Origin: Paenibacillus sp. FSL W8-0426
GTDB lineage: Bacteria > Bacillota > Bacilli > Paenibacillales > Paenibacillaceae
Reading direction: 5' to 3'
DNA length: 64,000 nt
Assembly: GCF_037969725.1 (NCBI RefSeq)
Contig: NZ_CP150203.1
Location: 6,315,501 to 6,379,500 of the forward strand
The notes below the pieces were generated by a model. The model was given only the letters and a program-made list of their open reading frames with translations. It had not been told where the DNA came from and did no database searches. The translations under genes were made by a program, and so were the position numbers. Positions 23,000 through 62,041 of the stretch are shown here, piece by piece; position 1 is the stretch's first letter, and every line of letters starts with the position of its first letter.

Positions 23000-23150
23000 G
23001 TATATGACAACTCCTCATTCATTACTTGTTCGGTTCGAATAATCCTACTCATTATATATGACAAGCACCGGTGCATCAAGGAAGTTTGCCAATTCCATGC
23101 GCACCGGAGCAGGAAAATCATCCACAATCTTCTATGAGCCTTGGGTCAAA

Positions 23151-23223
23151 TTACGTTGCTGAGATCTGTTAGCGTTGGATCACGCTTCATATCGGCCACA
23201 TAAGGTGGCTGATGTTCGTTAGC
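23151..23223. repeat. fragment of the CTAACGAAC repeat family
   Basis: Contains TTACGTTGCTGAGATCTGTTAGCG and, 30 nt later, GCTGATGTTCGTTAGC (23208-23223). The latter is identical to the inner arm of the copy near 46.68 kb. The end of the repeat supplies the last codon and stop of the adjacent acetyltransferase gene. Confidence 0.55.
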
Positions 23224-43882: not shown

Positions 43883-44037
43883 ATTACGCATGTAACGCCC
43901 CCTTGCACACCACACTCACAAGTATTCATGCAGTTTCGACCGCGTCGCTAACGAACCCTATGCAGCTAGAATAAAAAGTGGACACATCGTTAAGGAACAG
44001 AAATAATAGACCTAACGAAAGAAGAGGTGTCCACGGC

Positions 44038-44355
44038 ATGGGAGAACAACGGCAACGTTACAATGAAGAATTTAAGAAACAAACGGTAAAGTACATTCAG
44101 GAGCAAACAAAGACGCTATCCGATGTAGCGGAAGATTTAAATATTCCTAAAAGTACGCTGAGTCAATGGATGACTAAGTACCGGCAATTCGATCAGGAAA
44201 ACGTCAACCATCCTGAAAAGATCCGAAATCTCGAACAAACACTCCGAGCAAATGAAGCAGAACAACGCCGGAAAGACCGTGAAATTGAAGATCTCAAAGA
44301 AGAACTGGCTATCCTAAAAAAGGCGCTGCACATCTTCAGCAAGGAAAAGAACTGA
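44038..44355 (+). CDS. IS3-family OrfA (HTH transposase subunit), copy 1
   Basis: A 105-residue protein: HTH_Tnp_1 domain (YNEEFKKQTVKYIQEQTKTLSDVAEDLNIPKSTLSQWMTKY) followed by a leucine-rich coiled coil (NLEQTLRANEAEQRRKDREIEDLKEELAILKKAL) for multimerisation. It binds the terminal repeats. The slippery heptamer A AAA AAG at 44316-44322 lies in frame near the end and would shift ribosomes into orfB to make the OrfAB transposase. The ATG at 44038 has AGAGGTG upstream. Confidence 0.92.
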   Translation: MGEQRQRYNEEFKKQTVKYIQEQTKTLSDVAEDLNIPKSTLSQWMTKYRQFDQENVNHPEKIRNLEQTLRANEAEQRRKDREIEDLKEELAILKKALHIFSKEKN

Positions 44356-44393
44356 GGTTCCAATTCATCGAAGAGTATCGCTCCGACTTTCGA

Positions 44394-45227
44394 GTGGAGA
44401 AGATGTGCAAGGTCTTGCAAGTGTCTCGGAGTGGCTACTACAAATGGCGTTTGGCTGCACCATCCAACCGAGATCAGCGGAGGAAACGCCTTACGAATCG
44501 AATTTTGTGGCACTATCATGACTCGGATTCGAGGTATGGTAGTCCTCGTATTCGCAATGAACTTTTAAAAGAAGGTTGGGTCGTATCGGAGCGTACGGTC
44601 GGCTTCATCATGCGCGAAAACGGACTTCGTTCCTGTGTTTCGCTTAAGTTTAAAGTGTGTACAACGGATTCCAGACATACGTTTCCGGTAGCGCCTAATG
44701 AGCTCCAGCAAGACTTTTCAGCTTCAAAACCGGCCGAAAAATGGGTCGCAGACATCACCTATATCCCATGCCGTCAGGGCAGACTGTATTTAGCCAGCAT
44801 TTTGGATCTGTATACCAAGCAAATTGTAGGTTGGAAGCTGAGCGACCGCATGACCACTGATCTCGTCATGGATGCATTAAACCAGGCCTATACTGCGAAA
44901 AAGCCAGCAAAAGGGCTCATCCACCACTCTGATCGTGGAGCACAATATGCTTCCAAGGAGTATCGACGCAAGTTGGAACAGTATGGGATGAAAGCGAGTA
45001 TGAGCAGGCCTGGAAACTGCTATGACAATGCTTGTATTGAAGCCTTTCACAGCACATTGAAGCGAGAACTGATCTATCGCATCCCTAGATTTAAAACGAA
45101 GGCAGAAGCCTATGAAGCACTATATCGCTACTTGGAATTCTTTTATAATCGCAAACGCTCACACAGTGCACTGGGTTACCTGTCTCCTTTGGAATTCGAG
45201 CAACAGTATTACCAAAAAACCTCATAA
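44394..45227 (+). CDS. IS3-family OrfB (DDE transposase catalytic part), copy 1
   Basis: The catalytic triad is seen in VADITYIPC (Asp), HHSDRGAQYASKEY (Asp) and NACIEAFHSTLKRE (Glu), with HTH_21-like DSRYGSPRIRNELLKEG upstream. The listed ATG is a minimal start. The -1 frame is open from the orfA slip site (44316) through LRFQFIEEYRSDFRVEKM, so the real product is probably the OrfAB fusion. No disruption is seen. Confidence 0.92.
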   Translation: MEKMCKVLQVSRSGYYKWRLAAPSNRDQRRKRLTNRILWHYHDSDSRYGSPRIRNELLKEGWVVSERTVGFIMRENGLRSCVSLKFKVCTTDSRHTFPVAPNELQQDFSASKPAEKWVADITYIPCRQGRLYLASILDLYTKQIVGWKLSDRMTTDLVMDALNQAYTAKKPAKGLIHHSDRGAQYASKEYRRKLEQYGMKASMSRPGNCYDNACIEAFHSTLKRELIYRIPRFKTKAEAYEALYRYLEFFYNRKRSHSALGYLSPLEFEQQYYQKTS

Positions 45228-45389
45228 ACGAGAGTGTCCACTTTATTGACAGAAGAGCACTACGCACGTTATGTGCTCGATTTTGGGGTCTGCCAAAACC
45301 TAACGAACATCATGCAGCTAGAATAAAAAGTGGACACATCGTTAAGGAACAGAAATAATAGACCTAACGAAAGAAGAGGTGTCCACGGC

Positions 45390-45707
45390 ATGGGAGAACA
45401 ACGGCAACGCTATAATGAAGAATTTAAGAAACAAACGGTAAAGTACATTCAGGAGCAAACGAAGACGTTATCCGATGTAGCGGAAGATTTAAATATTCCT
45501 AAAAGTACGCTGAGTCAATGGATGACCAAGTATCGGCAGTTCGATCAGGAAAGCGTCAATCATCCCGAAAAGATCCGAAATCTCGAACAAACACTACGGG
45601 CCAATGAAGCAGAACAACGCCGGAAAGACCGTGAAATTGAAGATCTCAAAGAAGAGTTGGCTATCCTAAAAAAGGCGCTGCACATCTTCAGCAAGGAAAA
45701 GAACTGA
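45390..45707 (+). CDS. IS3-family OrfA, copy 2
   Basis: Identical to the copy 1 OrfA except Asn to Ser in DQE(N/S)VNHP; other differences are silent. The slippery A AAA AAG is at 45668-45674. Confidence 0.92.
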   Translation: MGEQRQRYNEEFKKQTVKYIQEQTKTLSDVAEDLNIPKSTLSQWMTKYRQFDQESVNHPEKIRNLEQTLRANEAEQRRKDREIEDLKEELAILKKALHIFSKEKN

Positions 45708-45745
45708 GGTTCCAATTCATCGAAGAGTATCGCTCCGACTTTCGA

Positions 45746-46579
45746 GTGGAGAAGATGTGCAAGGTCTTGCAAGTGTCTCGGAGTGGCTACTACAAATGGC
45801 GTTTGGCTGCACCATCCAACCGAGATCAGCGGAGGAAACGCCTTACGAATCGAATTTTGTGGCACTATCATGACTCGGATTCGAGGTATGGTAGTCCTCG
45901 TATTCGCAATGAACTTTTAAAAGAAGGTTGGGTCGTATCGGAGCGTACGGTCGGCTTCATCATGCGCGAAAACGGACTTCGTTCCTGTGTTTCGCTTAAG
46001 TTTAAAGTGTGTACAACGGATTCCAGACATACGTTTCCGGTAGCGCCTAATGAGCTCCAGCAAGACTTTTCAGCTTCAAAACCGGCCGAAAAATGGGTCG
46101 CAGACATCACCTATATCCCATGCCGTCAGGGCAGACTGTATTTAGCCAGCATTTTGGATCTGTATACCAAGCAAATTGTAGGTTGGAAGCTGAGCGACCG
46201 CATGACCACTGATCTCGTCATGGATGCATTAAACCAGGCCTATACTGCGAAAAAGCCAGCAAAAGGGCTCATCCACCACTCTGATCGTGGAGCACAATAT
46301 GCTTCCAAAGAGTATCGACGCAAGTTGGAACAGTATGGGATGAAAGCGAGTATGAGCAGGCCTGGAAACTGCTATGACAATGCTTGTATTGAAGCCTTTC
46401 ACAGCACATTGAAGCGAGAACTGATCTATCGCATCCCTAGATTTAAAACGAAGGCAGAAGCCTATGAAGCACTATATCGCTACTTGGAATTCTTTTATAA
46501 TCGCAAACGCTCACACAGTACACTGGGTTACCTGTCTCCTTGGGAATTCGAGCAACAGTATTACCAAAAAACCTCATAA
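45746..46579 (+). CDS. IS3-family OrfB, copy 2
   Basis: Differs from copy 1 by two residues near the C-terminus (Ala to Thr in HSALGYLS, Leu to Trp in SPLEFEQQ). The DDE residues are intact and the -1 frame from orfA is open. The product should be active alone or with copy 1. Confidence 0.92.
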   Translation: MEKMCKVLQVSRSGYYKWRLAAPSNRDQRRKRLTNRILWHYHDSDSRYGSPRIRNELLKEGWVVSERTVGFIMRENGLRSCVSLKFKVCTTDSRHTFPVAPNELQQDFSASKPAEKWVADITYIPCRQGRLYLASILDLYTKQIVGWKLSDRMTTDLVMDALNQAYTAKKPAKGLIHHSDRGAQYASKEYRRKLEQYGMKASMSRPGNCYDNACIEAFHSTLKRELIYRIPRFKTKAEAYEALYRYLEFFYNRKRSHSTLGYLSPWEFEQQYYQKTS

Positions 46580-46764
46580 ACGAGAGTGTCCACTTTATTG
46601 ACAGAAGAGCATCAGCCGCGTTATTCGAGGCAAAACGAGCGCAGCAGTCCTATTTTCCCCGATATAAAGACGCTGATGTTCGTTAGCATTCAAATCGGGC
46701 CAAAAAGTACCCCATTACGTGTCTCAGGTTCGTTACAGCTCGGGCAAGATGAAATCACGAATAA

Positions 46765-61867: not shown

Positions 61868-61925
61868 GCAAACGGACCATAAACACGCCATTTCACCAGA
61901 AATAGTGTGTCTGTGGTCCATTTGC
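61868..61925. repeat. isolated long palindrome
   Basis: GCAAACGGACCA / TGGTCCATTTGC arms (one mismatch) enclose a second stem, ATTTC-ACCA-GAAAT, with ACAC/GTGT between. It would form a 58-nt hairpin without a T-run. It lies in the 435-bp gap before the convergent SDR gene, which holds no gene. Confidence 0.6.
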
Positions 61926-62041
61926 TTCTGCGAGAACGCATTTCCGGTCAAATAAAGCACTCAGGTTCACTCATTTCTAGACCTTCTCCTCTGAAGCATA
62001 GCCTTTGCGCTTACGTTCCCAATCGTTATTCGAACGCAGCG

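Follow-up and report, generated by a model that had tools for sequence, protein, structure and literature searches.

A clade of IS3-family elements in Paenibacillaceae very probably inserts at the dyad centres of short palindromic boxes, most of which lie in fixed-spacing arrays

RESULTS

Two IS3-family elements interrupt a four-box array

The DNA analysed here, called the window, is a stretch of 64,000 nucleotides of the Paenibacillus sp. FSL W8-0426 genome. Its segment 43949..46735 contains two IS3-family elements, each of 1,299 bp and in the same orientation (Table 1). OrfB matched the NCBIfam model transpos_IS3 with 335.7 bits (cut-off, 160) as well as the Pfam rve domain, and OrfA alone reached 44.9 bits against transpos_IS3, under the cut-off. 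Elements of the IS3 family have TG...CA ends and generate target duplications of 3 bp (3 to 5 bp). The clade conforms to this description in its transposase homology (OrfA HTH, OrfB rve/DDE), in its TG...CA ends with exact 3-bp duplications in 111 of the 131 copies with usable flanks, and in the overlap of orfA and orfB at an A6G frameshift signal, identified by sequence; TA replaces TG at the start of the element in some lineages. The heptamer AAAAAAG is found at the identical place in all six copies of the host genome (44316 in copy 1), and the OrfB frame is predicted to be reached through a frameshift there. A match to the ALIL pseudoknot was observed 3′ of the heptamer (44327-44429 and 45679-45781), at 23.9 bits and thus below the gathering threshold of 50; its position just past the slip sequence would fit programmed frameshifting. 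An RNA-family search of the IS locus and nine array loci gave nothing above threshold, and below threshold it returned ALIL at the frameshift and three weak matches only. In a plasmid listing, IS1133, IS3, ISAba22 and ISKpn18 came closest among named elements, at 41 to 43% identity. Relatives of the clade bear generic names among the 120 of 6,285 matches listed, with ISCce3 appearing in one record.

Table 1. Features of the interrupted array (positions in the window)
Feature	Coordinates	Strand	Remarks
Four-box array (forward, forward, reverse, reverse), twice interrupted	43949..46735	.	empty version in G010
Box F1, left part	43949..43960	+	TAACGAACC + duplication CTA (43958-43960)
IS copy 1	43961..45259	+	1,299 bp; termini TGCAGC...AGAGCA
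OrfA of copy 1	44038..44355	+	HTH_Tnp_1 (Pfam)
OrfB of copy 1	44394..45227	+	IS3 transposase, rve domain; start is the first listed start codon
Box F1, right part	45260..45271	+	duplication CTA (45260-45262) + CGCACGTTA
Box F2, left part	45301..45312	+	TAACGAACA + duplication TCA (45310-45312)
IS copy 2	45313..46611	+	1,299 bp; OrfA 45390-45707, OrfB 45746-46579
Box F2, right part	46612..46623	+	duplication TCA (46612-46614) + GCCGCGTTA
Box R1	46665..46685	-	no IS
Box R2	46715..46735	-	no IS

Removal of both elements in silico left four 21-bp boxes with starts separated by 50, 62 and 50 bp, as in the other arrays of the host genome. The sequence-only reading of this locus had placed one element in the outer and one in the inner arm of a single inverted repeat, at the same offset, and the reconstruction bears this out: F1 and F2 were hit, and CTAACGAAC followed by one base precedes the duplication in both. 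The target of copy 1 reads TAACG-AACC-[CTA]-CGCA-CGTTA and that of copy 2 TAACG-AACA-[TCA]-GCCG-CGTTA, so that a symmetric 21-bp frame (TAACG-N4-[3 bp]-N4-CGTTA) is centered on each 3-bp duplication. When counted alone, neither motif was enriched, with 77 occurrences of CTAACGAAC versus 64 of a reversed control, and 276 per strand of TAACG-N11-CGTTA (at most one mismatch) versus 347.

The same reading held that two insertions had taken place, which was borne out by the distinct duplications, by an empty locus and by the differences between the copies. In G010, assigned to the same species by the tool used, the locus is without either IS, and one CTA is present in box 1 and one TCA in box 2; a 27-bp deletion private to that genome has cost it part of a linker together with bases one to four of the second box. 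Eighteen of 1,299 positions distinguish copy 1 from copy 2, compared with 4 between copy 1 and L002 and 3 between copy 2 and L004. Had a single inserted element been duplicated in tandem, a near-identical pair in one orientation with an offset of 1,352 bp would result, but this origin is so unlikely as to be barely credible, because each copy has a closer match in another copy of the genome than in its neighbor, the duplications and boxes differ, and both sites are unoccupied in G010.

Insertions in the host genome

Four of the six copies in the host genome (copy 1, copy 2, L002 and L006) lie in boxes at one offset, and all four have one orientation relative to the box; the duplications of L006 are mismatched (TTA/CTA). 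L003 and L004 lie outside boxes, and still they rank in the 98th to 99th percentile of the leave-one-genome-out profile described below. Given about 180 box centers, estimated from 48 arrays, in 6.9 Mb, finding four of six copies in boxes by chance has a probability of about 7e-18, rising to 3e-14 when insertion is assumed to be possible in only 12% of the genome.

A dyad-symmetric target across the Paenibacillaceae

A DNA search with the IS gave a match of any kind in 38 of 75 genomes of the genus, many of them short, and a search with OrfB gave matches at E<=1e-100 in 76 of 394 genomes of the family; one further genome collection contributed 27 loci. The loci sampled were the best rows plus 20 and 80 regions picked from the listings rather than every match. 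tblastn yielded 176 element rows, from which 5 were dropped as too distant; the remaining 171 comprised 158 distinct flank pairs. Both flanks were available for 134 pairs; exclusion of those containing N left 131, of which 111 showed exact 3-bp duplications, corresponding to 110 distinct targets. The 20 of 131 sites without an exact duplication were left out, and L006, L069, L073, L075 and L077 among them are visibly in boxes. As related genomes have box types in common, the sites are not fully independent.

The logo of the 110 targets is symmetric to about 13 bp on each side, with almost nothing further out. On the left it shows T 0.71, A 0.74 and A 0.63 at -10 to -8, mirrored on the right by T 0.57, T 0.74 and A 0.75 at +8 to +10. 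The inner pairs are G 0.55 at -5 with C 0.62 at +5, and A 0.50 at -3 with T 0.60 at +3, and positions 12 and 13 are A/T-rich on both sides. The rough consensus, AANTAR..GG-N-A-[3 bp]-..T-N-CC..YTANTT, has two-fold symmetry about the middle base of the duplication. TAR at -10 to -8 together with YTA at +8 to +10 was present in 46 of 110 targets at the true center, against 0 to 1 of 110 at ten shifted centers. The mean palindrome score was 5.44 of 12 at the center versus 3.00 elsewhere, and 54 of 110 sites scored at least 6, compared with 6.5 expected; the strictly best palindrome phase within 30 bp was the insertion center in only 21 of 110. When scored against neighboring positions with a profile built from the other genomes, 72 of 110 sites reached at least the 99th percentile; 18 fell below the 95th, two of these below the 50th.

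The sequence-only reading had predicted a conserved CTAACGAAC one base to the left of the duplication. This did not hold: a literal match is found in 2 of 110 distinct insertions, and boxes of other sequence are hit in other lineages. The 9-mer survives as half of one box type, but what is conserved is a dyad-symmetric site centered on the duplication. Most copies do not lie in sequence without the motif or a related palindrome, since 92 of 110 sites are at or above the 95th percentile of the profile.

The asymmetric boxes of the genus, as read from the flanks, contained 12 insertions in one orientation and 4 in the opposite one, to which L072 may be added by its left half. In the copies L008/L037, L010 and L072, the left and right flanks are half-sites of unlike origin, a pattern suggestive of a deletion or of recombination between IS copies. 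We also considered that the IS ends might carry a copy of the box half-site. The mean best match was 7.37 with an element's own ends and 7.23 with those of other lineages (SD 0.04, 20 shuffles), a small difference confounded by relatedness, and this idea was rejected.

Another IS3 group of the genus (L278-L297; ends TGGTATTATCCCC... / ...GCTATGACCA), whose OrfB is about 37 to 40% identical, was fetched as 20 loci, with both ends found in 15 and 12 scored. By eye, complementary arms with A-runs and T-runs at their ends flank, for example, L279, L281, L283, L290, L296 and L297, and the group apparently targets the loops of intrinsic terminators. Although intended as a neutral control, it has a palindrome preference of its own.

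Most targets lie in arrays

The unoccupied targets were rebuilt by joining the flanks, and the target's own box was sought within 400 bp for insertions with exact duplications and at least 180 bp available on each side. Another copy of the box was found nearby for 69 of 110 insertions, compared with 1 of 110 for shuffled boxes, 10 of 600 for random window positions and 1 of 12 for the other IS3 group. With a fixed list of distances the count was 66 of 110, with L090 still included, leaving 44 of 110 without a second box. L015, L090 and L149, which are among the 69, are short tandem repeats and not arrays; the one around L090, a relative, has a 10-bp period. Distances peak at 51 bp (57 matches, with 27 more at 50 and 52 bp), and further peaks are seen at 62 (21), 102 (30), 113 (18) and 153 bp (22), the box sequence varying by lineage. 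The majority of targets are in arrays in which the box recurs about every 51 bp, or inverted at 62 or 72 bp. Box-pattern matches sought irrespective of the IS in G241 numbered 37 forward and 38 reverse, with zero in the control, and 12 of 14 close gaps between boxes were 51 or 52 bp. Most copies accordingly sit at one position of a dispersed extragenic palindrome, as in the REP-targeting IS; the preference for extragenic palindromes that had been suggested for this element is seen in four of six host copies and in 66 to 69 of 110 family targets located in arrays.

Box arrays of the host genome

We aligned 17 copies picked as complete, and their conserved part consists of the four boxes only, in the order forward-50-forward-62-reverse-50-reverse (distances between box starts) over about 187 bp. 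A model of the primary sequence returned at least 101 rows on both strands of the host genome among the best 150 of 815 candidates scored, and these rows read as at least 48 array loci, some of them partial. In the window, the segment 10762-10947 is a complete array, 23136-23223 a partial one and 61869-61968 a weak match (E 0.0026). Identity between non-orthologous copies is 75% in boxes and 37% in linkers. Of the loci listed, 40 of 48 are on the chromosome half that surrounds coordinate 0, the site of dnaA (Rayleigh p ~6e-6). The arrays are mostly intergenic, with 24 of 26 sampled loci (two seen twice) having no overlapping ORF of at least 120 aa, and the genes that flank sampled arrays have no fixed orientation.

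Two other natures were considered for the arrays and rejected. An RNA hairpin would be expected to show covariation between the arms, but in the 17 host copies the RNAalifold covariation term was -0.03, and the named arm pairing was no better than in shuffles, 365 of 500 of which were at least as high. A REP system driven by a RAYT was set aside as well, as no match to the Y1 transposase (Y1_Tnp, PF01797) was found in the host genome; the control search matched in 5 of 14 genomes.

The middle spacing differs by 10 bp between species

The array model matches in 48 of 75 genomes of the genus and in 201 of 388 genomes of the family, which represent 16 of 19 genera. For the host species, 50/62/50 was the best register in 18 of 25 rows (24 different arrays, one of them in two rows) and the others were within one base; 20 further host loci had a middle spacing of 61 or 62 in 17 cases, the other three being incomplete with poor scores. 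In other genomes of the genus, taking the best-scoring array of each, the register was 50/72/50 in 22 of 24, and the middle spacing was 70 and 71 in the remaining two. Twenty arrays from four of those genomes, four of them already counted among the best per genome, had a middle spacing of 72 in 18 cases, 71 in one and 62 in one. The middle spacing in most sampled other species of the genus is therefore 10 bp longer than that of the host. Outside the genus, 20 arrays from 11 genomes, including one array seen twice, were 50/62/50 in 16 cases and had a middle spacing of 61 in four. Because each sample consists of the highest-ranking matches to a model derived from 62-type arrays, sampling favors 62; the finding of 72 runs counter to this bias, whereas that of 62 outside the genus is in line with it.

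The orthologous arrays L236 of the host and L340 of G034 align in their linkers, with one clean 10-bp gap in the middle. L306 has flanking genes and a portion of one linker in common with L334, L336 and L341. At the shared loci L233 and L243, linker identity is near background and so gives no support to common descent of the arrays there.

DISCUSSION

We consider it highly probable, at roughly 90%, that an IS3 clade spread through the Paenibacillaceae inserts at the dyad center of short palindromic boxes. Elements of the IS3 family transpose by copy-and-paste through a minicircle, and this clade presumably does the same: its joined ends would put TTGACA and TAGAAT 17 bp apart, a putative junction promoter. 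A two-fold symmetric transpososome may then dock on the two-fold symmetric site and join the IS ends 3 bp apart across the dyad. Such a target choice spares genes, the boxes being intergenic.

It may be, although we think it on the unlikely side, that the transposase is blind to sequence and that a box-bound host protein, or a cruciform or single-stranded hairpin, guides insertion. The center is always hit even as box sequence varies by lineage, the other IS3 group chooses terminator hairpins, and the fixed spacing suggests a bound protein, all of which would agree with guidance. However, the core TAR..GG..CC..YTA persists across lineages, a profile derived from other genomes recovers most sites, and the host boxes are self-complementary only in part.

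As for the boxes, they most likely serve a host DNA-binding protein as paired binding sites, a prediction based on the fixed spacing, the unconserved linkers and the 10-bp difference: spacing and box sequence are conserved, and linker sequence is not. We tentatively propose that the arrays might form a family-wide chromosomal scaffold of four helically phased, protein-bound dimer sites, concentrated on the origin half, and that the IS3 clade might be a parasite tracking the dyads as box sequence changes. The change from 50/62/50 to 50/72/50 would then represent a genome-wide shift by one helical turn. We find it doubtful that the array is instead a REP/BIME-type or MITE-like mobile repeat or an RNA hairpin rather than a protein-binding array. 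Its units are indeed dispersed, intergenic, palindromic and in opposite orientations, as in BIMEs, yet the PF01797 transposase is absent from the host genome, arm covariation is -0.03 with 365 of 500 shuffles pairing at least as well, linkers of non-orthologous copies are 37% identical against 75% in boxes, and some arrays are orthologously placed in other species. Returning to the insertions, near-random integration with survival of copies only in harmless intergenic repeats is very improbable: the intergenic position of sampled host arrays (24 of 26 loci) agrees with such selection, but it would not put the duplication on the dyad (half-site pair in 46 of 110 against 0 to 1 of 110 at shifted centers), and another IS3 group of the genus favors other palindromes.

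In the open-licence literature we found no description of the target of this IS3 clade or of these arrays in Paenibacillus. REP-targeting IS3 elements are already known, and the box arrays are the bolder part of the finding. More than 100 natural insertions make the target rule of an IS3 transposase readable to the base and traceable across box types, and this clade is thus a good system for asking how integrase-like enzymes pick their targets. Fixed-spacing box arrays have been uncovered in about half of the family genomes searched. Their geometry is conserved, with species differing by 10 bp, which calls for a bound protein; none is named in the open-licence literature searched.

IS1397, ISKpn1 and ISPsy8 are IS3-family elements that insert in REP/PU palindromes, and five of five ISPsy8 copies are in REPs (PMC1525189). 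The present clade resembles them in its family, in its OrfA with a PF01527-type HTH and OrfB with a DDE integrase domain, and in its preference for dispersed extragenic palindromes, the likeness being one of target habit and domains. It differs in its hosts, in its repeats, which form fixed-spacing box arrays, and in its duplication, which over 110 insertions from many species falls on the dyad of a symmetric site.

The boxes themselves resemble REP, BIME and REPIN sequences as short dispersed extragenic palindromic units in both orientations (21-bp boxes at at least 48 loci, mostly intergenic). Unlike these, they come in fours, spaced 50/62/50 or 50/72/50 bp, and the linkers between them are not conserved. 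They also differ from REPs and BIMEs in that no RAYT match (PF01797) was found in the host genome and that arm pairing in the 17 host copies gave no sign of a stem-loop kept by compensatory change. The 1997 Bacillus subtilis genome paper reportedly described 190-bp repeats, of about 190 bp, only in the origin half of the chromosome. As far as length and location go, the arrays described here would be similar, measuring about 187 bp and having 40 of 48 listed loci in the origin half.
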